From NCBI GenBank assembly GCA_026002855.1, contig BPGD01000001.1, positions 2,736,001 to 2,800,000 of the forward strand: 64,000 bases of DNA, in the 5' to 3' direction. This DNA is from Bryobacteraceae bacterium (GTDB taxonomy: Bacteria > Acidobacteriota > Terriglobia > Bryobacterales > Bryobacteraceae). The notes below the pieces were generated by a model, which was not told the origin of the DNA, searched no databases, and worked only from the letters and a program-made list of their open reading frames with translations. Position numbers and translations under genes: made by a program. Below are positions 1,517 through 26,272 of the stretch, one piece after another (the first letter of the stretch is position 1; each line of letters opens with the position of its first letter).

Positions 1517-2461
1517 ATGAGCCTCTACCAGACGTTGTACTTCATGTCGCTGGCCGGAGGCTTCGCTGGTCTGTTGAGCTGGGCGCTGACGGCGCTGCTG
1601 TCGGCGACGATCCTTTCCAACCGCCCGGCGCTGGCGGACCTGACGGCGGCGGCGCTGCTGGGGTTGATCATCGGCCTGCTTACGGTCGCCTTCTCTGACA
1701 AGTGGTCGGGCAACCGCGTGGTTGGCCGCTACGTGCTGGCGGGCGGGGCCATCGGCCTGGTGGCGGGGCTGCTGGGCGGACTGGCGATGATCCCCATCAC
1801 CGAGAACCTGGGCCCGCAGATGCCGTTCCTGGCGCGGTTGCTGAGCTGGATGCTGGTGGGCAGCCTGATCGGACTGGGACTGGGGCTGCGGTGGGTGATG
1901 GCGAACAAGATGCGGGTGGTGCACGCCTGTCTGGGCGGGCTGATAGGAGGTGCGGTGGGCGGCTCGCTGTTCCACGTTCTCGGCAGCCGGATCCCGGACC
2001 TGACCCAGGCGCTCGGGTTCGTGCTGGTGGGCGTGGGCATCTGTTTTGGCGTTACCCTGGCCCCCATCCTGTTGCGGGACGGGCTGTTGAAGTTCGTCTC
2101 GAGCGGCGACGCGCGGGCGCAGGCCAAATTCGGCCGCAGCGGCAAGGAGTGGGAGATCCGTCAGGGCGACACGCTTCTGATCGGTTCACAGCCGCTGGAC
2201 CTGAACAAGACGGCGTTCGCGGTGGGCGTGCAGGTTTTCATTCCGGACGCGGCCATTGCGCCGCGGCACGCGATTCTGTTCGGCAAGGAAGGACGCTTCT
2301 ACATCGCCCGGCACCCGGACATCAACAATCCCCAGGGCCTGGCGCGATATGTCCTGCGCGTCCGGGGCCGCACGGTGACTACGTCCCAGGAGTTGCGGGC
2401 CGGCGACGACATCCTGGTCGGGCGCACGGCCATCAAGTTCATGACCAGGAAGGATGGCTGA
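1517..2461 (+). CDS. Six-TM membrane protein with C-terminal FHA-like domain
   Basis: A 314-residue protein. Residues ~5-190 contain about six Gly/Ala/Leu-rich membrane segments. Residues ~200-314 form a soluble beta-rich tail with FHA-like traits (GSQPLDL, IPDAAIAPRHAILF, then AGDDILVGRTAIKF). FHA domains bind phosphothreonine, and in known T6SS loci they link Ser/Thr phosphorylation to assembly. The start is set by AGGAGGAG eight bases upstream. It heads the plus-strand secretion locus and is followed 24 bases later by the VWA gene. With no TssL/TssM in view it is a candidate membrane anchor or regulator of the machine (inference). The FHA assignment is by pattern only. Confidence 0.7.
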   Translation: MSLYQTLYFMSLAGGFAGLLSWALTALLSATILSNRPALADLTAAALLGLIIGLLTVAFSDKWSGNRVVGRYVLAGGAIGLVAGLLGGLAMIPITENLGPQMPFLARLLSWMLVGSLIGLGLGLRWVMANKMRVVHACLGGLIGGAVGGSLFHVLGSRIPDLTQALGFVLVGVGICFGVTLAPILLRDGLLKFVSSGDARAQAKFGRSGKEWEIRQGDTLLIGSQPLDLNKTAFAVGVQVFIPDAAIAPRHAILFGKEGRFYIARHPDINNPQGLARYVLRVRGRTVTTSQELRAGDDILVGRTAIKFMTRKDG

Positions 2462-2485: not shown

Positions 2486-3952
2486 ATGAATTCGACCAGG
2501 TTCGGGCCTGCGGCGGTCATGCTGGCCGCCATGCTGGCACCCGCAGTCGCGCAGAACCCGGGGCTGGACTTTGCCGAGCCGCTGAAGCTGGTCTCCTGCG
2601 AGCCCGCCTCAACAGTGCCCTGCTTCCGGATGAAGCTGAACCTCGTGGACGGGCGCGGCCAGCCCTACAATGCGCAGCTTCCGCCGCCGGAGCGGCTCGC
2701 CTCGCAGATCACGGTCAACATGGGCGGCCAGCAGATCCGGCCTTTTTACGCCTCGGCGGCGGGCGAGTCCGTGGCCAAGGTGCGCGGCCGCGCGGCGCTG
2801 ATCATTGTTGACATCTCCGGCAGCATGAAGAAGGTGCTGCCGACCGGGCAGACGCGGTTTGACGCGGCCAAGGCAGCGGTGCGAGGCTTCCTGGACCAGT
2901 TCGAGGAAGGGGCGGACCGGGTGGCGGTGGTGCCCTTCGAAAGCCATCTGGTGGAAGACCGGATCCGCTCGGCGGTGTTTGCCCGGACGCGCGCGGGGGC
3001 GCTTGGGCAGGTGGACGCGCTGCCGCAGCCGGAGATGCGCAACAACACGGCGCTGTTTTCGGCGGTGGTGTTTGGCATCGACACATTGAAGCGGGCGCTG
3101 CCAAGGATCGAGCAGGAGACCGGCGAATCGCCGGAAGCGATGGTGATCGTGCTCACTGACGGCAACAACGAGGTCCTGAAGGGCGACGACCTCGGGCTGC
3201 TCGCCGGCCCGGCGGGCATGGAGGAGGCGGCGCGGCATGTGAAGCAGGCGCCGTTTCCGGTGATCGCCATCGGCTTTGGCGAGCCGGGCGCGATCGACGA
3301 GGCCGCGCTGCGGCAGATCAGCACGAAATATTATCTGGCCAGCGATTTTGAAGGCCTGCGGCGCATCTTCACGTTTACCCGCACGTTTCTCAACAACCGC
3401 CTGGTGGCGACCTTTTCCTCGCCCTATCCGGACCGCGCCTCGCTGGCGGGTCAGAACCTGCCGGTGACGGCCGAGCTGACGCTGCCGAACGGGCAGGTGC
3501 TGAAGTCGCCGGAAATTGTGTGGTCGGCGCCGCAGATGGGCGTGCCGGTCTACGCGGGCAAGTGCACGCCGGACGAGATGAAGGCGGTGCTGGCGGCGCT
3601 GCCGGTGAGCGCGGGGTGGACGTCGATCGTTCGGCCGCTCGGAGTGTTCTGCGGGCTCGCGCTGTTGTTGCTCATCCTGTGGCACTGGGTGCCACGGCTG
3701 GTATGGCCGGAGCAGTACATTGGCGTGATGCCCGGCACGGGGCAGACGAAATGGGGCTCGCAGACGCGGATCGTCAACGGCGTCATCGCCGGGCGGCCCG
3801 CTCCGCCGGGCTTTCAGAAGGGACCCGGGGGGGTGGCGATGCCACCGCGGAGTGCCGCGGATGCCACCGTTGTCAATCCACAGGCCCATCGCGATTTCTC
3901 CCAGACGAGGCTCGGCAACCGCCAGGGGCCGGGCCCGAGGGGACCGTTCTAG
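2486..3952 (+). CDS. Exported VWA-domain protein with C-terminal membrane segment
   Basis: A 488-residue protein with an N-terminal signal peptide (residues ~1-22, ending near AVAQ). A von Willebrand factor A domain starts near residue 104 with an intact MIDAS motif D109-x-S111-x-S113, and VIVLTDGNNE further on fits the distal MIDAS strand. A transmembrane segment (FCGLALLLLILWHWV) lies near residues 388-403, followed by a ~85-residue basic/Pro-rich tail. The topology suggests an extracytoplasmic metal-dependent adhesion domain and a short cytoplasmic tail. VWA domains mediate protein-protein contacts. It sits between the FHA membrane protein and tssB in the same orientation, so a scaffold role for the secretion machine is plausible but not shown. 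The SD GGAGGGG precedes ATG 2486. Confidence 0.75.
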   Translation: MNSTRFGPAAVMLAAMLAPAVAQNPGLDFAEPLKLVSCEPASTVPCFRMKLNLVDGRGQPYNAQLPPPERLASQITVNMGGQQIRPFYASAAGESVAKVRGRAALIIVDISGSMKKVLPTGQTRFDAAKAAVRGFLDQFEEGADRVAVVPFESHLVEDRIRSAVFARTRAGALGQVDALPQPEMRNNTALFSAVVFGIDTLKRALPRIEQETGESPEAMVIVLTDGNNEVLKGDDLGLLAGPAGMEEAARHVKQAPFPVIAIGFGEPGAIDEAALRQISTKYYLASDFEGLRRIFTFTRTFLNNRLVATFSSPYPDRASLAGQNLPVTAELTLPNGQVLKSPEIVWSAPQMGVPVYAGKCTPDEMKAVLAALPVSAGWTSIVRPLGVFCGLALLLLILWHWVPRLVWPEQYIGVMPGTGQTKWGSQTRIVNGVIAGRPAPPGFQKGPGGVAMPPRSAADATVVNPQAHRDFSQTRLGNRQGPGPRGPF

Positions 3953-4033: not shown

Positions 4034-4540
4034 ATGCCGTTAGTCAAGGTGATTCGCAAGGGGGTCACGCCCTCGGTGCGAAAAGTGCCCACGTCCACCG
4101 CCGCCGTCATTCTGCCGATGACGGTAAACCGCGTCGGCAAGGAGGTGGCGTCGGAAAACGAAGAACCGGTCAAGATCGAGGACCTCAACGACGCGTTCGC
4201 GAAATTCAAGCCGGAGCTGAATTTCAAGGCGACCGCCGGACCGGAGGAGACCGAATTCCGCGCCGAATTCAAGTTCCGGTCAATGAAGGATTTCGACCCG
4301 GAGAACCTGCAAAAGAGGCAGGAATTCCGGGACGAGGACGGCAACGTCACCTATGCCCGCAACGACATTGCGGACCTGAAGGCCAACATCGATCTGCTGT
4401 ACCGGCTGAAGGACCGCTGGAAGCTGCCTGCCGTCCGCCGCGCCTGGAACAACCCGGAGCAGCGGGCGGAGATCATCCGCGCATTGGGCCGCCTGCGCGA
4501 GGAGTTGCAGAAGGTGGCCGCGAAAGGAGGGGCACAGTAA
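4034..4540 (+). CDS. tssB: T6SS-like contractile sheath small subunit TssB/VipA
   Basis: 168 residues, the usual TssB size. The N-terminus is basic, followed by TssB-like text (PVKIEDLNDAFAKFKPELNF) and a region typical of sheath small subunits (FRSMKDFDPENL; later NDIADLKANIDLLYRLKDRW). TssB pairs with TssC to form the contractile sheath around the Hcp tube. The gene ends directly against the ATG of tssC, with tssC's AAAGGAGG inside its 3' end, as expected for subunits made in equal amounts. The N-terminal ~40 residues diverge from Proteobacterial TssB. Confidence 0.85.
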   Translation: MPLVKVIRKGVTPSVRKVPTSTAAVILPMTVNRVGKEVASENEEPVKIEDLNDAFAKFKPELNFKATAGPEETEFRAEFKFRSMKDFDPENLQKRQEFRDEDGNVTYARNDIADLKANIDLLYRLKDRWKLPAVRRAWNNPEQRAEIIRALGRLREELQKVAAKGGAQ

Positions 4541-5872
4541 ATGGCTGAACTCGTCGAAACCCGTACGACGGCCGAGATTCTCGGCGAAAGCGCCGCAAGG
4601 GACCTGTTGCAGGAGATCTTTTCCGACCTGCATCCGGGCTTCATGGATGAAACCCGGACCATCGCCTCGATCTTCACGCCGCAGTCGGCAGCGGATTTTC
4701 TTAAGCAGCTCATGGATCTCGAGAACCTGCTCTCGGTGGAGGACACCTATGAGCAGACGGTGAAGAAGATCCAGGACCAGATCGACAAGGCGGAGGCGAT
4801 CCGCGACGAGCTGCTCGAGAAACTGTTCGCGCAGATCCGGCCGATCGAGCGCAGCTACCGCCAGATCCAGCTCTTCTTCGAGAACTCGAAGGTGATGGAC
4901 GGCAAGGTGCGCAAACCGGTGGAACTGTATGTGCTGAACGCCGACACGAAGGCGATGAAAGACGTCTTCTCGATGAACATCGCCGCCATCGAGAATTTCG
5001 TCCGCAAGCGGAACGACAATTTCAATTTCCGCGACGACATCTGCAACCTGGTTGTGCCCGGCTACGTGCCCCAGCCGGTGCGTGAGAAGTTCGAGGACAT
5101 CGCCAATCAGTGGGGCATGCTGCTGATCACGGATGTGGACGACGAGAAGTCGTTCCGCAATCTCGAGCGCAACTTCCTGCCGGGCGGCAAGTACGAGTTC
5201 ATGAAACGGCCCGAGGACCGCGCCGCGGCCGACGTCGTCTGCGCCGGCTATCTGATGGCGCGGCCGAAGCACTGGTTCGAGAAGACGGTGGACGGGGGCG
5301 ACGACCTCTACGTGCCGCCGTCGCTGGTCTTCGCGGGCGCGGTGGCGCGCGCCGATGACGGGCAGGGCATGGCGCAGGGCCCGGTGGGCTCGCGTTTCGG
5401 CCAGATCGTTGGCGTCGAGAAGGTGCGCTTCGAGCCGCTCATCGGCGAGATGGAGCACCTGTCGATGGAACGCCAGCTCATTCCGATCATCCGCGACGCC
5501 GACAACCATCTGTGCTTCTTCGGCTGCCGCACGCAGGCCGAAGACCCGCACGGGGTGCTGAAGTTCTTCACCAGCTACCGCATCCTGCGCTATCTGGAGC
5601 GCTGCTGCCGTCACTACCTGCTCCAGGTGGCCGGCCAGGTGCTGACGCGCGACTTCATGGAGGAAAGCATCGAGAAGCCGCTCAAGCGGCTGCTGGACGA
5701 GCAGGTGGAGCAGGGCACGATCCTTGGCTACGACCTGTTTGTGGACAAGGACTCCAACAAGCGGATGCAGGGCATCTGCGACATCAGCCTGAACGTGATG
5801 CCGACGGGTCCGGCGGAGACCTTCGTGCTGAAGATCGACACGCCGGAATTCGCCAAACAGGAGCAGAAGTAG
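4541..5872 (+). CDS. tssC: T6SS-like contractile sheath large subunit TssC/VipB
   Basis: 443 residues, close to the usual TssC length. An N-terminal helical part (residues 1-120) precedes the conserved sheath core, with NLVVPGYVPQPVREKFEDIA, a stretch around RPEDRAAADVVCAGYLMARPKHWFE, and the C-terminal FFTSYRILRYLERCCRHYLL region followed by the final beta strand (CDISLNVMPTGPAETFVLKI). It forms the sheath with TssB. Its start codon directly follows the tssB stop. The sequence looks closer to the Bacteroidota (T6SSiii) type than to Proteobacterial TssC; this is an impression to be tested by phylogeny. Confidence 0.88.
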   Translation: MAELVETRTTAEILGESAARDLLQEIFSDLHPGFMDETRTIASIFTPQSAADFLKQLMDLENLLSVEDTYEQTVKKIQDQIDKAEAIRDELLEKLFAQIRPIERSYRQIQLFFENSKVMDGKVRKPVELYVLNADTKAMKDVFSMNIAAIENFVRKRNDNFNFRDDICNLVVPGYVPQPVREKFEDIANQWGMLLITDVDDEKSFRNLERNFLPGGKYEFMKRPEDRAAADVVCAGYLMARPKHWFEKTVDGGDDLYVPPSLVFAGAVARADDGQGMAQGPVGSRFGQIVGVEKVRFEPLIGEMEHLSMERQLIPIIRDADNHLCFFGCRTQAEDPHGVLKFFTSYRILRYLERCCRHYLLQVAGQVLTRDFMEESIEKPLKRLLDEQVEQGTILGYDLFVDKDSNKRMQGICDISLNVMPTGPAETFVLKIDTPEFAKQEQK

Positions 5873-6430: not shown

Positions 6431-6913
6431 ATGGCCGCAACGCCTTACCGGTGCACCGTCACCATCGACGGCACGAAGTTCGACGCCGTGTCCACGTCCG
6501 TCCGCTTTCAGACGGACAAGGACCGCACGGGCATGCCCCAGATGGGCAGCCTGAACACGAAGATCCGCGTCATCGCCGATTTCCACGATGACAAGAACCT
6601 GCCGTTTTCGGCGCTGAAGAAGTTCTTCGATCTGGCCAATGTCGTCACGCGCGACAAGATCAAGGACATGAAGATCGAGTACTGGAAGGACGACACGCAC
6701 GAGGACGCGCTGGTCAGCTTCCAGTTCAAGGGCTGGATCAGCCGCTTCGAAACATCCAACCCGCACCCGCTTGGCCTGGCCGCCCTCAAGACGGAAGAGG
6801 AGTTCGCCAACAACCCGGCGGCGGCCTTCCCCAACCTGAACCATGTGCTGGTGCTGGACCTGGAGCCGACGCTCAGCCAGGAGAAGTTCAAAGACATCCA
6901 GATCAGCAAGTAG
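6431..6913 (+). CDS. hcp1: Hcp-like tube protein 1 (TssD)
   Basis: 160 residues in the small-beta-barrel Hcp/TssD pattern: TPYRCTVTIDGTKF at the N-terminus, KFFDLANVVTRDKIKD, WKDDTHEDAL, FKGWIS and a final beta strand. Hcp stacks into the inner tube propelled by the sheath. Its neighbour 39 bases downstream is a close paralogue; by hand about 85 of the first ~110 residues match. This copy carries an extra ~15-residue insert near residue 115 (roughly LAALKTEEEFANNPAA). GAGGAGGAAGAG precedes ATG 6431, a strong ribosome binding site as expected for a highly made tube protein. Confidence 0.85.
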   Translation: MAATPYRCTVTIDGTKFDAVSTSVRFQTDKDRTGMPQMGSLNTKIRVIADFHDDKNLPFSALKKFFDLANVVTRDKIKDMKIEYWKDDTHEDALVSFQFKGWISRFETSNPHPLGLAALKTEEEFANNPAAAFPNLNHVLVLDLEPTLSQEKFKDIQISK

Positions 6914-6952: not shown

Positions 6953-7390
6953 ATGGCAACGCCGTATCGCTGCACCGTCACCATTGACGGAACGAAATTC
7001 GAAGCCGTGAGCGCGCAGGTGGTCTTTACCACCGACAAGGACAAGGCGGGGATGCCCGAGATGGGGAGCCTGAAGTCGCGCATCCGCGTGTGGGCGGATT
7101 TCCACGACGACAAGAACCTGCCCTATTCGAGTCTTCAGAAGTTCTTTGATCTGGCCAACGTGGTGACGCGCGACAAGATCAAGGACATCAAGATCGAATT
7201 CTGGAAGGACGACACGCACGAAGACGCCCTTTGCTGCTACAAATTCAAGGGCTGGATCTCGAACTATGAGGTCTCCAACCCGCCGGTGGAGATGACGCCT
7301 TCCGGCGAAGGGCTGAACCATATGCTGGTGATGGACCTCGAGCCGGTGATGAACCAGCAGAACTTCCAGGAGATCCAGTTCACCACCTAG
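6953..7390 (+). CDS. hcp2: Hcp-like tube protein 2 (TssD)
   Basis: 145 residues, a tandem paralogue of the preceding tube protein and lacking its ~15-residue loop insert. It keeps the same blocks (TPYRCTVTIDGTKF, ADFHDDKNLP, KFFDLANVVTRDKIKD, WKDDTHEDAL). A strong SD (GCGAGGAGGA) precedes the ATG. A perfect 11-bp hairpin follows its stop codon at 7403-7427, placed so that it could protect hcp mRNA or separate its output from tssE. Whether hcp1 and hcp2 make mixed or separate tubes cannot be told from sequence. Confidence 0.85.
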   Translation: MATPYRCTVTIDGTKFEAVSAQVVFTTDKDKAGMPEMGSLKSRIRVWADFHDDKNLPYSSLQKFFDLANVVTRDKIKDIKIEFWKDDTHEDALCCYKFKGWISNYEVSNPPVEMTPSGEGLNHMLVMDLEPVMNQQNFQEIQFTT

Positions 7391-7402: not shown

Positions 7403-7427
7403 GGCGGAGGCCGTTGCGGCCTCCGCC
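7403..7427 (+). other. Perfect 11-bp intercistronic hairpin after hcp2
   Basis: GGCGGAGGCCG (7403-7413) pairs with CGGCCTCCGCC (7417-7427) around the loop TTG. There is no T-tract, so it is not a classical intrinsic terminator; mRNA stabilisation or attenuation is more likely. Confidence 0.65.
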
Positions 7428-7446
7428 GGTCGAAAGGAGGCGCGCC

Positions 7447-7806
7447 ATCACCTTCATCGCGTTCCCGCTCCGGCTGGAGAACGGCTTCCTGCGCCGCACC
7501 GGCGAAGTTGAGGCGGTGTTGCGCTTCATCGAGATGATGGCCCGCACCCCGGGCGGAAGCTGGCCCGGATGTCCGTCGTTCGGCGTGCGCCACCTGTTCG
7601 AGGCGATGCGGCTGCGGCCCGAGGGCCTGCGGCAGGCGGAGAAGGCCATCAACGACACGCTGGCCGATCTCGGTATCACCCGTTACCGCGTGAAGTCGAT
7701 CCAGAAGGAGCCGGGCCCGAACCCGGACGTCGATGTGTACACGGTGACGCTGGTTTCCACCGCTGATCCCGGCCAAACGTGGACCGCGCGGCTGGAAGGT
7801 GAGTGA
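7447..7806 (+). CDS. tssE: Baseplate subunit TssE (gp25-like), probable ATC start
   Basis: 119 residues if translation begins at ATC 7447. The gp25-like core starts at once (FIAFPLRLENGFLRR) and continues with a stretch around PGCPSFGVRHLFE and a closing strand (VDVYTVTLVST). TssE is the baseplate wedge protein that starts sheath polymerisation. A full-strength AAAGGAGG lies at 7433-7440, six bases before ATC 7447. No ATG, GTG or TTG follows it in frame near the family N-terminus. The only upstream in-frame candidate, TTG 7414, is upstream of that SD and is the loop of the preceding hairpin. A rare ATC start therefore fits best. The family call is firm; the start needs protein evidence. Confidence 0.75.
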   Translation: MTFIAFPLRLENGFLRRTGEVEAVLRFIEMMARTPGGSWPGCPSFGVRHLFEAMRLRPEGLRQAEKAINDTLADLGITRYRVKSIQKEPGPNPDVDVYTVTLVSTADPGQTWTARLEGE

Positions 7807-7844: not shown

Positions 7845-9545
7845 ATGCCCTATCAGAGAGCCACGGCGGTCGAAATCGACAGCAAGATGCGGGAGGATTT
7901 CCGCAAACGGCTGAAGGAGTATGGCGTCAGCGCGGAGAGCACGGATCCTGTGCTCGCCGTTTTGTTCCGGACGTTCGCCCAGCAGCTCGAAAACCTGTAC
8001 AGCGACACGGGCCGCATCCGGCTGGCGCTGCTCGACGAGCTCATCGCCGGCCTGGGCATCGAACCGCGCAAGGCGCGTCCTGCGCAGGCGGTGGTGCGGG
8101 TTCTCGGAGCGTCTTCGCCGGTGCATGTGGACGCCGGGGCCACGCTGCGCAGTCAGACGCCGACGGGCGAACGCTTCAACTTCAGCACGGACGCGCCGGT
8201 GACCGTTTCCGGCGCGCAGATCGTGCTGGGGGCCGCTTACGAGAAGGGCCAGCTCCGGCTGCTTGCCGGCGTGGAGATGCCCGAGCCGTTCCTGGCTGCC
8301 CGGCCGGCGCTCGATCCGGTGAAGGTGAACCTCGGGCCCAGCCCGGCGCTGTTTCTGGCGGTGGAGCCCGCCGGCAAGGAGCATCTGAGCGGACACAGTG
8401 TTTATTTCGACCTGACGCCGGACGCGCGCCCTGTGCAGGAAGCGCTGGCAGTGGAGACGTGGTGCCTGGCCGGGGCGCAGGGCGAATTTTCCGGCCCCGG
8501 CATTCTGCGGCCGCGCCCGGCCAACGCAGGCCTGAGGAGGCTGGAGTGGCTGGTCCGGCCGGCGGGCACGGCCAACGGCGCCGAGGAGGTCCAGGACAAG
8601 ACGCCGATGCTGCCGCCGGGTTTTTATGCGGGCCGCGTCTTTCTTCTGCCTGCCATTCCGCCGGAGCGGCAGTTTCTCTGCGCCGTGCCGCGGGGGCTGG
8701 AGGTGCCGCTGGGCCGGATCTTCGGACGCGAGGCGCAGTCTTTGTTTTCCAGGCCGCGGGCGTGGTTCCGCATCACGTTCCCGCGAGAGATCCCCCCGTT
8801 GCACACGGCCATTGGCGGCGTCTTCCTGCACGCGATCACCGCGTCCAATGTCGAATGCTTCAACCAGACGATCGTCTTCGAAAAGCATGGCACGGCCATT
8901 CCGATCAGCCGCGAAGGCGGCACGGACTGGCAACTGGTCTCTCCGCTGTCGCTGATCGGCGAAGACGACACGCCATATCTGGAGGAAACGGTACCGTCGA
9001 CCAATCCGCTGGCCGGACGTTACGCGATCCGCAACGGCCGCATTGAAATCACGCCGGCGAAGTGGCCCGACGGGCGGCCACAGTCGCTTGTGAATATCCG
9101 CGTCTGGATCAGCGCGGGCGAGGCCGCCAACCAGGTGGGGCCTGGGATGATCACATCGCTTGAGCTGCGGGGCGGCGGCGCCCTGCGGGTGCTGAACCCG
9201 ACGTCCGCGGCGGGTGGCACAAGCAGCGAGTCCTACGCCTCGGCGCAGGAGCGCTTCGCCGCCGCGCTGCTTTCGCGCGACCGAGTGGTGACGCGCGCCG
9301 ACCTGCTGGCGGTGGCACGGGCCTTTGACCGCCGCATCCGCGACGCGCGTGTCACATCGGTGGTGGAGCGCGTGGGCGGCGCGCTGCGGCGCGTCGAGCG
9401 CGTCACCGTCAGCCTGGTGCGCGAAGAGTTCACTGACCCCGACCTCGAGGCCGGCTATCTGCGGGACGAGTTGCAGGATCTGTTGGAGAAGCGCTTCCTG
9501 CACGACATCGGCCTGAGCGTCCGCACCGAGTGGATAGAACCATGA
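7845..9545 (+). CDS. tssF: T6SS-like baseplate subunit TssF
   Basis: 566 residues, the usual TssF range. The N-terminal helical part (TDPVLAVLFRTFAQQLENLYSDTGRIRLALLDELIAGL) matches the TssF opening and leads into the beta-rich wedge domain (VRVLGASSPVHVDAGATLRS). The C-terminal third is basic and contains the RVTSVVERVGGALRRVERV region. TssF and TssG form the baseplate wedge scaffold with TssE and TssK. Its TGA overlaps the ATG of tssG (ATGA at 9542-9545), which supports coupled synthesis. Confidence 0.82.
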   Translation: MPYQRATAVEIDSKMREDFRKRLKEYGVSAESTDPVLAVLFRTFAQQLENLYSDTGRIRLALLDELIAGLGIEPRKARPAQAVVRVLGASSPVHVDAGATLRSQTPTGERFNFSTDAPVTVSGAQIVLGAAYEKGQLRLLAGVEMPEPFLAARPALDPVKVNLGPSPALFLAVEPAGKEHLSGHSVYFDLTPDARPVQEALAVETWCLAGAQGEFSGPGILRPRPANAGLRRLEWLVRPAGTANGAEEVQDKTPMLPPGFYAGRVFLLPAIPPERQFLCAVPRGLEVPLGRIFGREAQSLFSRPRAWFRITFPREIPPLHTAIGGVFLHAITASNVECFNQTIVFEKHGTAIPISREGGTDWQLVSPLSLIGEDDTPYLEETVPSTNPLAGRYAIRNGRIEITPAKWPDGRPQSLVNIRVWISAGEAANQVGPGMITSLELRGGGALRVLNPTSAAGGTSSESYASAQERFAAALLSRDRVVTRADLLAVARAFDRRIRDARVTSVVERVGGALRRVERVTVSLVREEFTDPDLEAGYLRDELQDLLEKRFLHDIGLSVRTEWIEP

Positions 9546-10435
9546 GCCTGGTGATGCCCGATCTTGCCTCGAGCTTCCACGGATTCCACCACACGGTGGA
9601 CTCGGCGCTGGAGGTGCTGTCGAACATGGGCATCTCGGCGGGCCGGATCACGCTGGAAATGGACGGACCCGGATATCCGTCGCGCTGGGTGGTGGCGCAA
9701 TCGCCGCCGGCCGGTGCGCCGCTGGGGCCGGGCGACGCCATCCGGCTCCGCATCGCCGGACTGGGCTACTTCCATCACCTGCCGGTGGCGTTCTGGGACA
9801 CGGGCGGCGAAGCCGAGATCGGCACGCGCGAAATTGTCTCTGTCGTTGACGATCCGTTCCAGAAGGCCGCGCACTGGCTGAGGGAAGGCGCCCGGCTGTT
9901 TGACATCAGCGAGCGGAATCTCGACGCCTGTGCCCGATGGATCTCGCTGTTCGGACTGGATCCGGAGGTCTGGCCGCAGGAGCTGTGGTTCCGTCTGTCG
10001 CTGCTGCTGCCGAGCCTGCAATCGCTGGCCGGCAAGGAGCACGGCATCCGCTTTGCCCTGCAACTGCTGCTGGGGCTGCCGCTCGAAAAGATCCGTCGCA
10101 GGCCGCGCGTGCGCTATCTGGCCGAGGAAGACCTGAGCCTGCTCGGGGAGGCGCACAGCCGGCTCGGCGTCGACTTTGCGCTGGGCGATCATGTGGAGGA
10201 CCTGGCCCAGCTCGTGCTTGTCATCGGACCGGTTCCGCTGGAGACCTACTACCGGTTCCAGCAGGAAGACCAGCGGTATCTGCTCCACGCCACACTGTAT
10301 CTGGTCACGACGTGTCATCAGAAGTGGAGCGTCGAGTGGAGCGTGGCCGATCGCCGCCGCGCCCCGAGGCTGGGAGTGGAAGCGCTCAACTCCCGGCTCG
10401 GGCTGAATACGCATCTGGGTGCCTTGGCCGGGTGA
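9542..10435 (+). CDS. tssG: Baseplate subunit TssG with N-terminal PASTA-like domain
   Basis: 297 residues from ATG 9542, overlapping the tssF stop. Residues ~95-297 carry TssG traits: SRLGVDFALGDHVEDLAQ, VLVIGPVPLETYYRFQ and the terminal SRLGLNTHLG. Ahead of this, residues ~15-75 resemble a PASTA domain: SALEVLSNMGIS, then VVAQSPPAGAPLGPGDAIRL, which is the usual V-x-x-Q-x-P-x-x-G pattern. PASTA domains normally occur outside the cell on kinases and penicillin-binding proteins, so finding one on a cytoplasmic baseplate subunit is unusual. No signal peptide is seen. An alternative GTG start at 9530 adds only four residues. Confidence 0.78.
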   Translation: MSLVMPDLASSFHGFHHTVDSALEVLSNMGISAGRITLEMDGPGYPSRWVVAQSPPAGAPLGPGDAIRLRIAGLGYFHHLPVAFWDTGGEAEIGTREIVSVVDDPFQKAAHWLREGARLFDISERNLDACARWISLFGLDPEVWPQELWFRLSLLLPSLQSLAGKEHGIRFALQLLLGLPLEKIRRRPRVRYLAEEDLSLLGEAHSRLGVDFALGDHVEDLAQLVLVIGPVPLETYYRFQQEDQRYLLHATLYLVTTCHQKWSVEWSVADRRRAPRLGVEALNSRLGLNTHLGALAG

Positions 10436-12023: not shown

Positions 12024-12034
12024 GGAAGAGATGC

Positions 12035-12760
12035 ATGAAGGTATTTGACGGAACCAACAAGACCCCCACCAGGATCGACCTGAGCGGGGACTCTTTTTCT
12101 CCCAACATGGGTGCCCTGGTGGGCTCTTCCAACACGGAGGACGTGCTCAACCACGGGACGCTGAACCAGCTCGTGCAGGGCAACGTCACGCGCGTCTTCT
12201 GCGTCAACGAGACCATCACCGTGAGCGTGAACCAGACGCTCACGGTGGGCGCGAACCGCTCCGCCACCATCGGCGCCAACGACTCTCTCACCCTCGGAGC
12301 CAATCTCACGGAGATGGTGGGCGGCATAGTCAACCAGACTTATGGCGGCGGCCAGATCACCCTCTGCGCCGGTCCTCACACCCGGACCGATGTCGCTTCC
12401 AGCGTGTGGATGTGCCCCGGCGGCACGTTCATCAACAGCGGCGACCTCTACGAGACGAAGCTGACCAACTGCGCCGCGTACCTGTTCCAGCAGCAGAATG
12501 TGGCCACGGCAGTGGATGTGTTCGGGCTAAAGAGTGAAGTGGTGGTGGCGAAGAACAAGAGCGAAGCGATCCAGACCAAGCTCCAGAACCTCTCCAACAA
12601 GATGGTCGCCGGCCTCCGCAACACGGCCCAAGCCACTTGCATCGCCATCCATCTCATGCGCTCCGACATGACCGGCGCCCATCCGGAAGTCCGCGCCGTG
12701 CGGCCGGCGGTCGGCTGTGAAATCAGCGCGCCTCCATCATCCATACCGGGAGTCCAGTGA
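12035..12760 (+). CDS. T1: needle/tip-like protein of cassette 1
   Basis: 241 residues from ATG 12035 (SD GAGGAAGAG just upstream). The N-terminal ~45 residues share a motif with the other two T proteins (TPTRIDLSGDSFSPNMGALVG, cut here at its end). Residues ~55-100 are short beta-helix repeats, ITVSVNQTLTVGANRSATIG then NDSLTLGANLTEMVGG, like the needle repeats normally fused to VgrG. The C-terminal half is different and contains an Asn/Lys-rich helical stretch. It directly follows vgrG1 and probably extends the spike as a separate chain (inference). No PAAR motif is present. Confidence 0.6.
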   Translation: MKVFDGTNKTPTRIDLSGDSFSPNMGALVGSSNTEDVLNHGTLNQLVQGNVTRVFCVNETITVSVNQTLTVGANRSATIGANDSLTLGANLTEMVGGIVNQTYGGGQITLCAGPHTRTDVASSVWMCPGGTFINSGDLYETKLTNCAAYLFQQQNVATAVDVFGLKSEVVVAKNKSEAIQTKLQNLSNKMVAGLRNTAQATCIAIHLMRSDMTGAHPEVRAVRPAVGCEISAPPSSIPGVQ

Positions 12761-12764
12761 GCCT

Positions 12765-13661: not shown

Positions 13662-14452
13662 CGAAATTCCCCTGGCATCCCGCCGCGACCACGCTGCCCT
13701 CTCCCGAGGGCTGGGACCTCCATCTCCTTCGCTATCCAAAGGCGGTTCCGCTCGAAGACGCGGACCGCGCCCTGCTGCGCGGGATTCTCGATCGGCTGCT
13801 GGCTGAGACCGCGAAGGACTATCCCGGCTTTCACTCCTACGGGCTGGTTCAGTACAACCAGCTCAACCGCGGCAACGCGTACCACGTCATGGGGGACAAG
13901 TTCCTGGCCTGGGGGATGGACGCCGGCCTCGGCTACTGGCCGCACCGGGAGCCTCCCGCATTGTGGACCGAAGAGGATTTCACTGAACTCGACATCGGTG
14001 AAATGCCGCGGCCATTGATGCACCAGGTCTTCGGCATCAATAAGGGACTGCCCGCCATTCAGGAAGCCTTCGATCTGCTCGCCGGCCTTGGCCCCATGGT
14101 GTTCACTCTGTCCGAGGACTCGGTCCAGAAGGTGAAGGAACGCGCCACCGCCCTGTTCCGGCCGCTCATCGAGGAGCCGGCGCTGCGGATGTTCGCATAC
14201 TATTACCCGCTGCTGTGCACCGCGACGTACAACGCGAAGTATGCGGACAAGCTTGACGAGTGGACCTGCGGCATTCATTTCTTCCTCCGCGAAAGCCCCG
14301 AGGAAAACGGCATCTTCATCGCCTCCAGGCGCCCGCTCGAACGGGTCTGGAAGGCCACGGGCGCCGTCGAGTCCGCGCCCGGCGTCTGGACGTGGCCGGC
14401 CCAACCGCCGGAGAAGGCAAGAAAGCAGGATGGACCCGATGAACCCCAGTGA
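13658..14452 (+). CDS. B1: unrecognised cassette protein, family B
   Basis: 264 residues starting in the ATGA that ends A1. It shares with B2 and B3 a central PPALWTEEDFTELDIGEMPR block, a YYPLL-type stretch, and the C-terminal RESPEENGIFIASRRPLERV motif. The last motif also resembles the end of A2 (ESPEEQGIVIASSKP), so A and B look distantly related. No signal peptide, membrane segment or catalytic motif is visible. It overlaps the start of tssK by 14-23 bases depending on which tssK ATG is used, which places this cassette inside the structural operon. Confidence 0.55.
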   Translation: MTKFPWHPAATTLPSPEGWDLHLLRYPKAVPLEDADRALLRGILDRLLAETAKDYPGFHSYGLVQYNQLNRGNAYHVMGDKFLAWGMDAGLGYWPHREPPALWTEEDFTELDIGEMPRPLMHQVFGINKGLPAIQEAFDLLAGLGPMVFTLSEDSVQKVKERATALFRPLIEEPALRMFAYYYPLLCTATYNAKYADKLDEWTCGIHFFLRESPEENGIFIASRRPLERVWKATGAVESAPGVWTWPAQPPEKARKQDGPDEPQ

Positions 14453-16394
14453 TCTGAAACTCCGAAGCGTCAACTGGGAGCATGGCATGCTCCTCACGCC
14501 GGATCATTTTCTCCGGCAGGAACGCTATTTCGACTCCCTGTTTTTGTGGATCCTGCGTTACATGACCAACGCGCGGGGCCTGGTCGGCCCGGGCCCGCGC
14601 GTGCCCGAAAACGAGATCGGCGCAGCGCGTTACGATCCGGTGGTCAGCCTGCACGAGGACGAAGAGCAGCTCACGATCACCGTCTCCCAGTGCCGCGGCA
14701 TCACGGCTGCGGGCTGCATCATCGACATCGACCCCTCGAGCCCGGTTTCGCGAAGCTTCCCGAGGGCGGACCTGGAAGGAGTGCAGGAAGCGCCCGTCTA
14801 CATTCTGGCGACGCCGCACGAGAAGTCCCCGGCCGAAGGGGAAACGGACGAGTTCAACCCGCAGATGCAGACTGAGCGCCAGTGGGACTACCGCATCAGC
14901 CTCCAGCCTTCGGCCGACTCGATTCCCTACGCGTTGGCCGCCGCCCGCATCCGCCGCCAGCGCTACGGGGCCGGTTACGAAAAGGACCCGTCTTACATTC
15001 CGCCCTGCACGACCATGGCTTCTCACAGCGAACTGGCGGCAGGTTACCGCAAGATCGTCGAGGAGGTCACCTTCCTTGCCGAGCGGTACGCCGAGTTGCA
15101 CCGCGCGATGCGCGAGTACCTGATCCTCTTTACCGAGCGCGGCATCGAAACGGAGGTCGACACGCAGACGGTACAGTTCGTCGACCGCATGGTGGCCGCG
15201 CTTCAGGACGTCGTGTACGAGCTGCTCGATTACGCACAGCCGCCTCAGCGATTTTTCGGCGAGTTGCGCAAATTCCTGCACTCGGCGGCGGTGTATTTCG
15301 ATCTCACGCCCGGCTTGCAGACCTATTACGACACGCTCAAGGAAGTGGGCGAAACGGAATTCATCCAGCTCATCAACCAGCAGAAGCGGATTCTCAGAAT
15401 GACGCGCACCTGGCGGGTACAGGATGATCTCGGCGTTGAGGTGCGCTCGGCGCTGGCCTCGCTGGCGGCGTTGCAGCGGCTGGAGCGCGCGCTCGAGGGC
15501 AAGTACGTTGACTTCCGCGTCAGTCCGCAACTGGAGGCGATGAACTTCGTCTTCGACCGCGGCGGCAACGTGCTCTACAAGCTGGCGGCCAAGCCGAGCC
15601 GGGTGCAGGGTGTCGGCGACGACATGGTCACCTTCTTCAGCCAGCTCCGGCTGGAGGGCCGGGACAAATACCGGCTGATCCTTGTGGGCGAGCAGAACGC
15701 GACTTTCGAAAAAGGAACGCGAATTCCCGCGGAAATCCGCATCAATGAAGGCAGCGGTTTCCAGCGGGCGCCGCTGAACCTGGTGAGCGAGGCCGTCATC
15801 GACGGCCAGACCAATTTCGAGTTCGATTTCGAAGCGCCGGACGTGCCCACCATCACCGACGTCCGCGTGGCCGTGCCGGCGCACATTCCGATCCGCACCG
15901 CGCTGCTGTTTACGCGCCACCGCTTCTACGCGGGCCGAGCGCAGGAGCCTTCAGCGCGGCCGGTGCAGCCGATCGAGCGGGCGCCGGAGCAGGCGCCCGC
16001 GCCTCCGCCGCCCTACGCGGCGCCGCCGCAGGGCGCGCCGCCCTATGCCGCGCCTCCGGCGGCCGTTCCGCCTTACCAGCCGCAGCAGGGTGCGCCGCCG
16101 CCTCCCTATGGGTCGCCACCCCAGGCTCCGCCCTACGGGCCCCCGCGCGGCGCGCCTCCCCCGGCGGCGCCGCCCTTCCAGCCGCCGCCTCCGCCACCGC
16201 CGCCGGAGGAGCCGAAGCGCGGCGGGGCGCCGTGGGAGTTCTTCCGACGGGCCACGGGAGCGCCCCCGCCGCCGGAGCCGCCAGTGACGCCGCCCCAACC
16301 GCCGCCACGGCAGCCCGGTCCGCCGCGGCCTCGCTTCGACCAGGGTGAGGAACCGCCTCCGCCGCCGCCTCCACGCCGGCGAAGGCTCGAATAG
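14430..16394 (+). CDS. tssK: Baseplate adaptor TssK with long proline-rich tail
   Basis: 654 residues from ATG 14430 (ATG 14439 is also possible). Residues 1-~505 are TssK-like: VNWEHGMLLTPDHFLRQERY is the family's N-terminal signature, and the centre and C-terminal domain (ending LLFTRHRFYAG) follow. TssK normally ends near 450 residues and its C-terminal domain contacts the TssJLM membrane complex. Here ~150 residues of Pro/Ala/Tyr-rich tail follow (repeats like PPYAAPPQGAPPYAAPP), with one short globular-looking stretch (APWEFFRRATG), ending PPRRRRLE. No TssJLM gene is in the window, so the tail may serve a different anchor (inference). Confidence 0.85.
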   Translation: MDPMNPSDLKLRSVNWEHGMLLTPDHFLRQERYFDSLFLWILRYMTNARGLVGPGPRVPENEIGAARYDPVVSLHEDEEQLTITVSQCRGITAAGCIIDIDPSSPVSRSFPRADLEGVQEAPVYILATPHEKSPAEGETDEFNPQMQTERQWDYRISLQPSADSIPYALAAARIRRQRYGAGYEKDPSYIPPCTTMASHSELAAGYRKIVEEVTFLAERYAELHRAMREYLILFTERGIETEVDTQTVQFVDRMVAALQDVVYELLDYAQPPQRFFGELRKFLHSAAVYFDLTPGLQTYYDTLKEVGETEFIQLINQQKRILRMTRTWRVQDDLGVEVRSALASLAALQRLERALEGKYVDFRVSPQLEAMNFVFDRGGNVLYKLAAKPSRVQGVGDDMVTFFSQLRLEGRDKYRLILVGEQNATFEKGTRIPAEIRINEGSGFQRAPLNLVSEAVIDGQTNFEFDFEAPDVPTITDVRVAVPAHIPIRTALLFTRHRFYAGRAQEPSARPVQPIERAPEQAPAPPPPYAAPPQGAPPYAAPPAAVPPYQPQQGAPPPPYGSPPQAPPYGPPRGAPPPAAPPFQPPPPPPPPEEPKRGGAPWEFFRRATGAPPPPEPPVTPPQPPPRQPGPPRPRFDQGEEPPPPPPPRRRRLE

Positions 16395-16480: not shown

Positions 16481-19168
16481 GTGGCCATCAACCTCGACAA
16501 GATCTCGAACGAACTCGAGGACGCACTCGAACGTTCGCGCCTGCTCGCCGAGCAGCGAAAGCAGGCGCAGATCACTCCGCTGCACATGCTATACGTGCTG
16601 CTCGACGCCGAATCGCCGCTCGCCGCGGTGCTCGACAAGGCCGGCATTGCGGTCGACGCGCTGCTGGAAACCTTCGCCACGCGGCTCAACACCGAGCGCA
16701 ACGCTCCGCTGGAGCCTGGGCGCAGGCCCACGGCGAGCTCCGCGCTGCGCAATCTCATTGAGAAATCGTTTGAGATGATGGAGCGGCGCGGCGCCGAACG
16801 GGCCGAACCGATCGACTTCATCATGGCCGCGGTGGAATACGGCGAAGAGGCGCTCCGCGGCGACCTCCGCCAGAACGGCCTCACCCGGCAGGCGATTGAA
16901 AAGACCGTGGAGACGCGCGCCGAAATCGGCGAGACCCTGGGCGAAAAACAGGCCGGCCGTTCCATGCCCGGCGCCGTCCCCAAGGCGCTGACCGGCGGCA
17001 AGCTGCTCGAAAAGTACGGCCGCGACCTCACCGCCGCGGCCTCGCGCGGCGAGCTGATGCCGGTGATCGGCCGCGACGACGAGATCCGCCAGGTCATCCA
17101 GACCCTGTTGCGCAAGAGCAAGAACAATCCGGTGGTGGTGGGCGAGCCGGGCACGGGCAAGACGGCCATCGCCGAAGGACTGGCGCAGCGCATTGCCGCC
17201 GGCGACGTGCCCGAGTCGCTCAAGAAGTGCAAGGTGATCGCGCTCGATTTGACGGCGATGGTCGCCGGGGCGAAGTACCGCGGCGAGTTCGAGGAGCGTA
17301 TCAAGGGCGTGGTGGACGAAGTGCGCGCGCGGAAGGGCGAAATCATCCTGTTTCTGGATGAGCTGCACACGCTCGTCGGCGCCGGAGGCACCGAAGGCGG
17401 CATGGACGCGGCCAACATCCTGAAACCCGCGCTGGCGCGCGGCGAGCTGCGCTGCCTCGGCGCGACGACGTTCGATGAGTACCGGGAAAAGATCGAGAAG
17501 GACGGCGCGCTGGCCCGCCGCTTCGACGTGGTGCAGATCCGCGAGCCGAACGACGAGATGATGATGGTGATGCTGCGCGGGCTGCGGCCGCGCTTCGAGG
17601 CCTTCCACGGCGTCAAGCTCACCGACGATGCGCTTCAGGCGGCCATCAAGCTCAGCCGGCGTTACATCCGCGGCCGCTGGATGCCGGACAAGGCGATCGA
17701 CGTCATCGACCAGGCCTGCGCGCGCATCCGCATGCAGAAGGAATCCAAGCCGACGCACATCGACCAGAAGGAGCGCTTGCTGTTGCGCAAGAAGGCGGAG
17801 CTGGAAGCGCTGGAATCGTCGGCTTCCACGCCCGCCGCGCTGCGCGCCGTCGAGGCACTGCGCGCCGAGATTGCGGTGCTGGAGCCGCAGGTGACCCGGC
17901 TGGTCGAGGACTGGAACAGCCAGAAGAACGCCCTGGACATGTTGCAGAAGACGAAGCAGGCCATCCAGGAGCAGACGGCGGCGCTCGAAGCGGCCGAGAA
18001 GGCGGGCGACATCACCAAGGCGGCCGAGATCCGCTACGGGTCGCTGAAGTATCTGGAACAGCAGCTTGCCGACCTGGAAAAGCAGACCGCCGGCGTCTCG
18101 CTGGTTCCCGACACCGTGCTGCCCGAGCACGTGGCCGAGGTGATCGCCGACATGACGGGCATTCCGTCGAGCCGGATGATGGAGAGCGAACGGGAACGGC
18201 TGATGAAGCTGGAAGAGCGGCTCAAGGAGCGCGTCTTCGGGCAGGACGAGGCGGTGAACGCCGTGGCCGATGCGGCCCGCCGCATGCGCGCCGACCTTCA
18301 GCCCGGACGCAAACCGAACAGCTTCCTGTTTGTCGGCCCCACGGGCGTCGGCAAGACCGAGCTGGCCAAGGCGCTCGCCGAGGCGCTGTTTGATGACGAG
18401 AACGCGCTGATCCGGATCGACATGGGCGAGTACAAGGACAAGAGCTCGGTCTCCGGCCTCATCGGCAGCCGCCCGGGCCTGGTCGGCAGCGAGGAGGGCG
18501 GTTTTCTTACCGAACAGGTGCGGCGCAACCCATATTCGATCGTGTTGTTCGATGAGGTGGAGAAGGGCGCGCCGGAGATCCTGGACCTGCTGCTGGGCGT
18601 GCTCGACGAAGGCCGCCTCACCGATGCCAAGGGCCGCTTCTGCGATTTCTCGAACACGATCGTGCTGTTCACCTCGAACCTCGGAGTGCGCGAAGCGATC
18701 GAGGCCAGCGATGATCCGGAGGTGCAGAAGCAGGTGATCGTCGAGGTCGTGAAACGGAGCCTGCGGCCGGAGCTGTACAACCGCATCGGCCAGGTGATCA
18801 CCTTCAATCCGCTCACCGAGCGCGAGCTGGAGGCGATCGTGATGAAGAACTTCAATCAGGTGAAGAAGAAGCTGGCCGAGGATCGCGAGATCGGGCTTGA
18901 AATGACGCCGGCTGCGCTCGGCTACCTGGCCAGGGAGTCTTACGATCCGGCCTATGGCGCGCGGCCGGTGCAGCGCACGATGCAGCAGCTCGTGCTTTCG
19001 CCGTTGGCCAGCATTCTGCTGTCTGGCGAGGCCCAGGCCGGCCAGACGATCCGCATCGACTATGATCCGGGCGTCGAGAAGGTGATCGAAGGCGCCGAGG
19101 GAACCGAGCCGGTCACGGTGCGCGAAGGCGAGGGATTGACCTTCAGCGTGATTTCGGCGGATTCGTGA
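16481..19168 (+). CDS. clpV: ClpV-type AAA+ sheath-recycling ATPase (TssH)
   Basis: 895 residues from GTG 16481, set by AGGAGGAAG just upstream. An N-domain (1-150) is followed by AAA1 with Walker A GEPGTGKT at ~221-228 and Walker [17 protein letters not shown], a coiled middle domain (~400-540), and AAA2 with Walker A GPTGVGKT at ~619-626 and [10 protein letters not shown]. ClpV disassembles contracted TssBC sheaths. The middle domain is as long as in ClpB, so a ClpB chaperone is the alternative. The position between tssK and a FHA/vgrG2 block favours ClpV. Confidence 0.85.
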
Positions 19169-19258: not shown

Positions 19259-21328
19259 ATGAAACGGTGGATCGCCATTCCGGTTGCGGCGCTCCTTTTC
19301 GGGTGGCTGCCCGCACAGGTGCCGCCTCCTGAAGAGGGCTGGATCGTGCTTCACGACGGCGAGTCGCATTTCGGGTGGACGCCTGCGGGCGCCGCCTGGG
19401 CGGCGGCGCGGGGCGTTCTCGTGGCCGAGGGCGGTGCCGGACAGTTGCGGTCGAACACGCCCTTTGGCGATTTTCTGCTGCGCTTTGAGATCCGCGCCGA
19501 AAAGAACGCCTCCGGGGCGCTCTATGTGCGCGCTGCGCGAGACGGAAATCCGAAGGAGACCGGGTACGGAATCGAATTTTCTGCGCTCGCATCCACGGCG
19601 TGGACGCCAGTGGAAATCGAGGCCGTCGGCGGGGGTGTGGGTGTGCGCGCCGGCGGGCGGATGATTGACCATTCGACGACGCCTGTGGCCCCGGCGGGTT
19701 TTTTCATCCTCGATGCACGGGGCGGCGGGCGCGTGGAGATCCGCAACATGCGTCTGCGGCTGCTGAAGCCGGATCTCCTGTTCAACGGAACGGACCTTTC
19801 CGGATGGAAATCCACCGGGGAGCCGGCGAAACAGAAGAGCGGGCTGGGCCGGCTGTTCGGCGGGGGCAAGCCGAAAGAGGCGAAGTGGACAGTGGTGCGC
19901 GGCATGATTCACGGCTCGGACGGCCCCGGGCAACTGGAGTCGCTGCTCCAGTTCGGCGATTTCATCTTCCAGGCCGACGTTCGTATCAACTCGAAGCGCG
20001 CGGACCAGCGGCGCCGTTACGCGATTCTGTTCCGCGGCGACCCGGGCCAGTTGGGTTCGGGCTATGAGGTGAACATCCAGCCGGGCGCGACCGGAGCGCT
20101 GATGGGCCTGACCACCGCCCGCCGCAACATCGGTGCGGCGAACCAGTTCGTCACCGTCACGATTGCCGCACATGGACGTCACATCCAGGTGTGGGCCGAT
20201 GGCGTCGCCGTGACCGATTTCAATGATGCGCGCCCTGAAGGCACGAATCCCAAAAAGGACGCGCGCAGCACACCCGGCGTCATCGCCTTTTACACGCCGG
20301 AAGATGACGCCGATATCGACATCCGCAACGTCCGCGCCGTGCAGCTTCCGAAGACGTTCGGGCTCGGGCCGAAGAAGCAGGAGATCACTGTCCTGCCCCA
20401 GGCGCCCGTGGCGCCCGCAATTCCCTCGCTGCCTGCCGCGGCGCCAGCCGCTCCGGACACCGGCGCCGCCGCGCTGCAACAGCAGCTCCAGCAGCAGCAG
20501 CTCGCCCAGATGAAGCAGGAGCAGCGCACGCAGCAGGAGGCGATGCTGTTACAGCAGGCGCTGCGGACGCAGGATCCGGCGCAGCAGATTGCCATCTTCG
20601 ACCAGATCCTCGCCATCAACCCGAACAACCAGGTTGCTTTCAATGGCCGCAAGGAGGCGATGGCGAAGCTGGAAGAGCAGCAACGGCGCGAAGCGGAAAA
20701 GGCCGCAGCCAGCTCGCAGCAGGAGCAGGCCGAGCAGCAGAAGCAGATGACGCTGGCGCAGAGCATCCAGGCTGCCGAGGCCGCGTTTCTGGCCGGCAAC
20801 CTGCTGGCGGCGGAGAAGGCGCTGAATGCGGCCGAGCGCATTGCCCCGGACAACCCGCAGGTCCAGGCGCTGCGCTCCAGGCTGAACTACGCGAATCAGC
20901 GCCGTTCCTCGATCCTGGCCATCGGCGCCGCCGGCGTGGGCACGGGCTGCATTGCGCTGCTGGCCTGGATCTTCGCGGCCCGGCGGCGGCGCGACCCGTA
21001 TATCGAGGTCATCGCCGGCCTGGACAAGGGCAAGCGGTTCAACATCGACAAGGAAGTGGTCATGGTCGGCGCCATTCCCGAAGATGGAGGGACGAAAAAC
21101 GACATCGTTCTGCGCGATGCGGAGCGCATGATTTCGCGCTTCCATGCGCGTTTTCACTGGAAAGACGGAAAGCTTTATATTGTCGACACGAACAGCTATA
21201 ACGGGACGTTTGTCGACAAGAAGCGCCTTGAGCCCGGCAAGCCGGTGCTGCTCAAAGGAGGATCGAGGGTCACTTTCGCCGGCACTTGCACGGTGAAAGT
21301 CGGCTTCGAGAGGCGGAAGAAGAAATAG
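19259..21328 (+). CDS. Exported protein with two DUF1080-like domains and a cytoplasmic FHA domain
   Basis: 689 residues. A signal peptide or anchor (residues 1-20) precedes two concanavalin-like DUF1080 (3-keto-disaccharide hydrolase fold) domains, at ~22-165 (EEGWIVLHDGE) and ~170-365 (LLFNGTDLSGWK). A Gln-rich coiled stretch and a short TPR-like region follow (~400-560). A transmembrane segment lies near 567-580 and a canonical FHA domain occupies ~583-685 (ISRFHARFHWKDG, TNSYNGTFVDKKRL). The likely topology is sugar-binding fold outside and phosphothreonine reader inside. It lies between clpV and vgrG2 in the secretion locus, so it may be a membrane-spanning regulator. Enzymatic activity is not supported by visible catalytic residues. 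Confidence 0.75.
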   Translation: MKRWIAIPVAALLFGWLPAQVPPPEEGWIVLHDGESHFGWTPAGAAWAAARGVLVAEGGAGQLRSNTPFGDFLLRFEIRAEKNASGALYVRAARDGNPKETGYGIEFSALASTAWTPVEIEAVGGGVGVRAGGRMIDHSTTPVAPAGFFILDARGGGRVEIRNMRLRLLKPDLLFNGTDLSGWKSTGEPAKQKSGLGRLFGGGKPKEAKWTVVRGMIHGSDGPGQLESLLQFGDFIFQADVRINSKRADQRRRYAILFRGDPGQLGSGYEVNIQPGATGALMGLTTARRNIGAANQFVTVTIAAHGRHIQVWADGVAVTDFNDARPEGTNPKKDARSTPGVIAFYTPEDDADIDIRNVRAVQLPKTFGLGPKKQEITVLPQAPVAPAIPSLPAAAPAAPDTGAAALQQQLQQQQLAQMKQEQRTQQEAMLLQQALRTQDPAQQIAIFDQILAINPNNQVAFNGRKEAMAKLEEQQRREAEKAAASSQQEQAEQQKQMTLAQSIQAAEAAFLAGNLLAAEKALNAAERIAPDNPQVQALRSRLNYANQRRSSILAIGAAGVGTGCIALLAWIFAARRRRDPYIEVIAGLDKGKRFNIDKEVVMVGAIPEDGGTKNDIVLRDAERMISRFHARFHWKDGKLYIVDTNSYNGTFVDKKRLEPGKPVLLKGGSRVTFAGTCTVKVGFERRKKK

Positions 21329-23009: not shown

Positions 23010-23041
23010 GACAGCGGCCAACAACAATGGAGGAAATTCGC

Positions 23042-23743: not shown

Positions 23744-23756
23744 AAAAGGATTGTTC

Positions 23757-26259: not shown

Positions 26260-26272
26260 CCGGGGGCAGGCG

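Follow-up and report, generated by a model that had tools for sequence, protein, structure and literature searches.

PASTA domains usually form the extracytoplasmic part of a kinase or of a penicillin-binding protein (PBP), and they are known as sensors of the cell wall. What, then, would such a domain do at the beginning of TssG, a wedge protein of the baseplate of the type VI secretion system (T6SS)? The question is raised by a T6SS locus of a Bryobacteraceae bacterium, contained in the 64,000-nucleotide stretch of DNA that was analysed as a whole (the window), in which a sequence-only reading had claimed a PASTA pattern at positions 9542-9770 and had favoured wedge contacts over sensing as its function. 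The ATG of tssG at 9542 overlaps the stop codon of the upstream tssF (7845..9545), and the gene and its parts are the following:

9542..10435, + strand: tssG coding sequence, 297 amino acids (open reading frame list and Pfam/TIGRFAM matches)
9548..9763, + strand: PASTA domain of TssG, residues ~3-74 (Pfam PF03793, homologues and fold match)
9764..9880, + strand: linker of TssG, residues 75-113 (most strongly conserved region in the family; low pLDDT)
9881..10420, + strand: wedge core of TssG, residues 114-293 (PF06996 and phage/CIS wedge fold matches)

The PASTA limits thus fall inside the span claimed at the outset, and the residues quoted for the pattern are present in the open reading frame. 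In the Pfam search of the window protein, PF03793 matches residues 18-72 with 23.4 bits against a cut-off of 23.2 (E 6e-5), a score that, taken alone, is borderline. When the whole genome was searched for PASTA in six frames, the same site scored 26.6 bits (E 2.4e-5) and was one of two sites at E<=0.001, the other belonging to a penicillin-binding-protein-like protein (39.2 bits). The TssG family itself (PF06996) covers residues 167-293 only, with 38.8 bits for a cut-off of 24.6 (E 8.4e-10), and the cut-off of the TssG equivalog TIGR03347 is missed (41.4 vs 143.3 bits), which makes the protein a diverged TssG relative. A hydropathy scan finds no membrane-like segment in it, and the PASTA domain is present in a single copy, fused to a structural wedge protein.

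Evidence from the family is broader. In an aligned set of 23 homologues, drawn from Bryobacteraceae and Acidobacteriaceae, Pfam recognizes TssG in 23/23 and PASTA at E<=0.01 in 19/23, the best value being 9.5e-8. Rerun singly, L029 (0.024), L033 (0.09) and L006 (0.14) give weak PASTA matches, while L053, which lies outside this set, is not matched at E<=1. Ten residues, specifically M5, P6, H17, S21, A22, L26, R35, Q53, P55 and L69, are invariant in 17/17 family sequences, and V51 and G58 are kept in 16/17. Three of them, H17, S21 and R35, are not known to belong to the usual PASTA signature and may form a contact patch of the domain. Moreover, a profile built on the first 76 residues of 17 family members reaches best domain scores of 30.9, 25.0 and 19.0 bits with the genuine PASTA proteins L011, L012 and L060, and only 7.3 bits with a fourth, the PBP L001; among the controls, the best of 2000 shuffles scores 7.5 bits and the best of 11 ordinary TssG proteins 3.3 bits. 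In the first search of the phylum, the N-terminal part of the window TssG was 46 and 40 % identical to L011 and L012, respectively.

The predicted structure points in the same direction. An AlphaFold2 model of the window TssG, built on nine sequences, has a mean pLDDT of 65.7, with ten-residue means of 63-89 over residues 1-70 and values under 50 at residues 75-117. Its N-terminal elements (H19-28, E36-40, E49-54, E67-72) describe an alpha-helix packed on three strands. In VIA, residues 1-77 match the PASTA domain of the kinase StkP (5nod) with Z 10.5 and an rmsd of 2.2 over 69 residues, and that of PknB (5e12) with Z 9.6; the eleven top matches of the model are all PASTA domains (Z 10.5 to 7.5). 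Foldseek lists PASTA matches at probability 1.00, yet their E-values start at 0.03, and no match of any kind reaches E<=0.001. Against the sequences of solved structures, phmmer found no relative of TssG and a profile search gave PASTA chains at E 0.066 or worse. As for the remainder of the protein, residues 114-270 of the model match wedge proteins of phiCD508, Mu and a Streptomyces system with Z 7.4 to 6.0, values at which a resemblance can still arise by chance. Taken together, the PASTA fold at the N-terminus and the wedge-protein matches behind it divide TssG into a PASTA domain, a linker and a wedge core. The linker has the highest mean pairwise identity of the family (0.579 at residues 75-113, as compared with 0.471 for PASTA and 0.436 for residues 166-293) and yet is modelled poorly, an indication that its folding may depend on a partner.

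With Pfam, the family and the predicted fold in agreement, it can be considered confirmed, at the level of sequence comparison and structure prediction, that TssG begins with a true PASTA domain. Signature and alpha plus three-strand fold are those of the PASTA domains of Ser/Thr kinases and PBPs, such as StkP and PknB, from which the domain of TssG differs in being a single copy, free of a membrane-like segment and fused to a wedge protein. It also departs from the extracytoplasmic setting of the kinases and PBPs, which is usual for the fold and not required by it.

Which role could the domain then play? In our best explanation, to which we give an even chance, PASTA would work in the cytosol, as a clamp on the stem of the (TssF)2-TssG wedge. 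TssG would stay in the cytosol, from which it would follow that its PASTA domain does not read the cell wall. The place of the domain would be the N-terminal wedge stem, close to the sheath initiator and to the first ring of the sheath; as a small and rigid clamp, it would tie wedge stem, sheath ring and initiator together, a job done in phage and eCIS baseplates by gp53/BW4, a wedge protein with a LysM fold. This role rests on position and on the analogy with LysM. With regard to position, the wedge of enteroaggregative E. coli (EAEC) has an N-terminal stem that touches TssC and is expected to meet TssE, and two C-terminal TssG loops that hold TssK (PMC6300606). In that structure only TssG residues 122-365 are assigned, so that the place of the N-domain is itself deduced. 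With regard to analogy, three further studies place a LysM domain among the sheath initiators and the wedge bundle of phage A-1(L) (PMC10966104), call the LysM-fold BW4 universally conserved in phage baseplates (PMC10811340) and, in a cryo-EM study, list TssG against gp7/gp53 (PMC5813253). A PASTA domain at the N-terminus of TssG would seem well placed for a gp53/BW4-type job. The LysM wedge protein (T4 gp53, BW4) is likewise a small fold of cell-wall-binding type in a contractile baseplate; in contrast to the PASTA of TssG, its fold is an unrelated one, and it either forms a protein by itself or is fused with further baseplate components. The N-terminal domain of TssG does not match LysM: PASTA is found instead, both in Pfam and among the fold matches listed. 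By analogy, the same place and the same job are proposed for the two domains. The preference for wedge contacts over sensing expressed in the sequence-only reading fits the absence of a membrane-like segment and the location of PASTA at the place of the ordinary N-domain, the contacts themselves being putative; as a whole, that reading of the TssG N-terminus is partly supported.

A different role could be proposed from the genes around tssG:

1517..2461, + strand: multi-pass membrane protein with a weak C-terminal FHA match, candidate anchor (hydropathy; FHA E 0.039, below cut-off)
2486..3952, + strand: VWA protein with one membrane segment, candidate anchor (PF00092 E 2.5e-12; hydropathy)
4034..4540, + strand: TssB, sheath (PF05591 E 7.4e-6)
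4541..5872, + strand: TssC, sheath (PF17541 E 4.6e-29)
6431..6913 and 6953..7390, + strand: two Hcp-like tube proteins (position; pair kept in related loci)
7414..7806, + strand: TssE-like protein, sheath initiator (position and length only; no Pfam match above cut-off)
7845..9545, + strand: TssF-like wedge protein (position; weak TIGR02243 and Baseplate_J)
14427..16394, + strand: TssK, start codon uncertain (PF05936 E 1e-7; 15/15 loci)
16484..19168, + strand: ClpV-like ATPase (named by eye from the translation; conserved in loci)
19259..21328, + strand: 3-keto-disaccharide hydrolase/TPR/FHA protein with one membrane segment, candidate anchor (Pfam; hydropathy)

The members of the cluster named by Pfam are TssB, TssC, TssG, TssK, VgrG and VWA, and TssE, Hcp and ClpV were named from their position, from their length or by eye. 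No Pfam family is matched at E<=0.05 by the Hcp-like pair; the TssF-like protein matches TIGR02243 (eCIS-type, E 1.7e-5) and Baseplate_J (E 0.009), both below cut-off, and does not match the ordinary TssF family at E<=0.1. Across 15 loci the order is multi-pass/FHA protein, VWA protein, TssB, TssC, two Hcp-like proteins, TssE-like protein, TssF, TssG, TssK, ClpV and FHA protein. TssE-like protein, TssF, TssG and TssK are present in 15/15 loci, the multi-pass/FHA protein in 10/15, VWA in 11/15, ClpV in 13/15 and the FHA/hydrolase protein in 12/15, the missing ones lying beyond the end of the sequence at those loci.

TssM (PF06761) and TssL (PF09850), the pair of type i systems, are absent from the complete genome of the window, in a search in which the E. 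coli control was matched. TssL was sought in the window genome only, TssM also more widely, in 13 of the 19 genomes carrying full-length homologues plus G260, a genome from another class, and it was found in 3 of these 14: in two of them, G590 and G521, an additional TssG of the ordinary kind is encoded 15 and 13 kb away from it, respectively, and in the third (G657) it is on a different contig from the PASTA-TssG. TssN gave no match in a search in which no control genome matched either. The segment 1517-21328 is thus a T6SS cluster in a genome free of TssM and TssL, and the conserved membrane proteins of the cluster, FHA and VWA, are candidates for the anchor.

Under these circumstances, PASTA might bind the cytosolic part of an unusual FHA/VWA membrane anchor and so replace the missing TssM/TssL contacts. 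The lack of TssM and TssL in the window genome, the placing of TssM beside an ordinary TssG in two of its three occurrences and the presence of FHA and VWA membrane genes wherever the DNA of a locus reaches would all suit such docking. Nevertheless, in Bacteroidota the anchor is met by TssK and not by TssG (PMC10781749), and TssK accompanies TssG in all 15 loci here; the EAEC structure, in turn, would put the TssG N-terminus on the sheath side of the wedge (PMC6300606). Docking is judged unlikely, and less likely than the clamp.

Another alternative concerns the origin of the domain. The window protein shares with TssG (PF06996, TIGR03347; EAEC 6n38, 6giy) the C-terminal core, the place after tssF and the presence of TssK, and differs from ordinary TssG in the missed TIGR03347 cut-off and in having PASTA in place of the N-domain. 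None of the 11 ordinary TssG proteins of the phylum, all of which match TssG, contains PASTA at E<=1, and 20 further ones, taken from 24 listed loci with a C-terminal match only, carry the ordinary N-terminal motif when inspected by eye. Instead of a normal TssG N-domain fold devoid of PASTA matches, which would have refuted the sequence-only reading, the window protein offers PASTA in Pfam, in its homologues and in the model, and the idea that an ordinary N-domain had been misread as PASTA is largely rejected by the Pfam result, by the ceiling of 3.3 bits with the N-terminal profile and by the 20 proteins read by eye. In hhalign, the PASTA-TssG and ordinary Acidobacteriota TssG families are joined at 98.9 %, and PASTA lines up with the ordinary N-domain, no long insertion being needed, so that PASTA appears to replace that domain, the alignment being weak over this part because few residues agree there.

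It could be argued instead that all TssG proteins have an N-domain distantly akin to PASTA in its fold, and that a recognizable PASTA sequence was kept or regained in this lineage with no exchange at all. A model of an ordinary TssG, which resembles 6n38_G and 6giy_C, has helix, strand, strand and strand near its N-terminus (H30-40, E59-62, E73-77, E85-88), that is, the same order as the model of the PASTA-TssG, and a 'GL..LP' motif follows the N-domain in both families. The lack of PASTA matches and the low profile scores of the 11 ordinary proteins speak against such an old kinship, as does the absence of PASTA chains from the 50 matches listed for the ordinary model, a result of little weight since its VIA matches mainly span residues 190-339 and barely cover the N-domain. 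Old kinship is kept as a rival on account of the like order of helix and strands, and is regarded as rather improbable.

Still less probable is that PASTA recognizes muropeptides, or some other small ligand, and modulates the assembly or firing of the baseplate. PASTA domains of kinases do bind muropeptides (e.g. PMC3145798), but TssG is without a membrane-like segment, T6SS baseplates are cytosolic and a single copy is carried by a structural protein; ligand sensing, too, is less likely than the clamp. Finally, an accidental likeness of a segment rich in proline and glycine, to which the margin of 0.2 bits over the Pfam cut-off and the weak Foldseek E-values could be ascribed, is hardly credible and was discarded in view of the family-wide matches, the invariant signature, the fold and the shuffle control.

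How far does the PASTA-TssG arrangement extend? Full-length homologues number 20 matches in 19/399 genomes of the class, with any match in 51/399. At the level of the phylum they occur in 6/396 genomes, with any match in 49, of which 40 have the C-terminal part only and 2 the N-terminal part only. A pattern search of the species collection, which reaches close relatives, returned 15 loci, partly from the same genomes. In L022 (DYJN01000050.1), the cluster is ~72-95 % identical to that of the window. In G260, which belongs to another class of Acidobacteriota, both parts of TssG are found in one frame (L019, 355 aa, 24 % identical), with PASTA at E 7.9e-4 and 19.8 bits, below cut-off; among 41 genomes of its own class, the only relative is L019 itself. 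Near this PASTA-like TssG, at ~4255-14895 of contig C20 (L095), lie far diverged ClpV-, TssB-, TssC-, VgrG- and TssF-like genes. Beyond Acidobacteriota, coverage consisted of the pattern scan of the species collection and of plasmid and viral records: the plasmid records gave no match at 1e-3, and the search of viral contigs led to nothing. In these searches PASTA-TssG was found in T6SS of soil Acidobacteriota.

Of the known T6SS types, type iii of Bacteroidota invites comparison, given that TssC of the window falls in PF17541, presumably the Bacteroidota type of TssC, and that TssM and TssL were not found. Furthermore, TssR of type iii is an envelope protein with a VWA-like domain (PMC10781749), and the window cluster also has a VWA membrane protein; its other membrane genes set it apart from type iii. 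All these elements may be combined, tentatively and with more doubt than conviction, in a separate TssJLM-free T6SS of Acidobacteriota, in which the ordinary N-domain of TssG would have given way to PASTA, PASTA would do a LysM-type clamp job and the machine would be held by an undescribed FHA/VWA membrane anchor. If true, contractile baseplates would have taken up a cell-wall-binding fold for a second time. A PASTA domain built firmly into a baseplate protein of the cytosol would be an example of this fold serving as a structural part. At the sequence level, PASTA-TssG also makes it possible to recognize a T6SS lineage that lacks the known membrane anchor, and both the function of the TssG N-domain and the anchoring of such systems become testable by one domain deletion. 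No paper naming 'PASTA domain' and 'TssG' together was found in the open literature, subscription journals being outside the search; a T6SS island of Salmonella includes a separate PASTA protein, among open reading frames not linked to T6SS (PMC2907695).

Some further features of the window cluster can be mentioned. Three cargo-like cassettes, at 10452-14452, 21378-25411 and 25570-27924, each consist of a VgrG/spike-like protein followed by two Pfam-less proteins, and the one between tssG and tssK is shared with L020 and L022 and absent from the other 13 loci. TssK (14427-16394) ends in a long proline-rich tail, and in the protein at 19259-21328 a single chain carries a C-terminal FHA domain and a membrane segment together with a 3-keto-disaccharide hydrolase domain and a TPR match.
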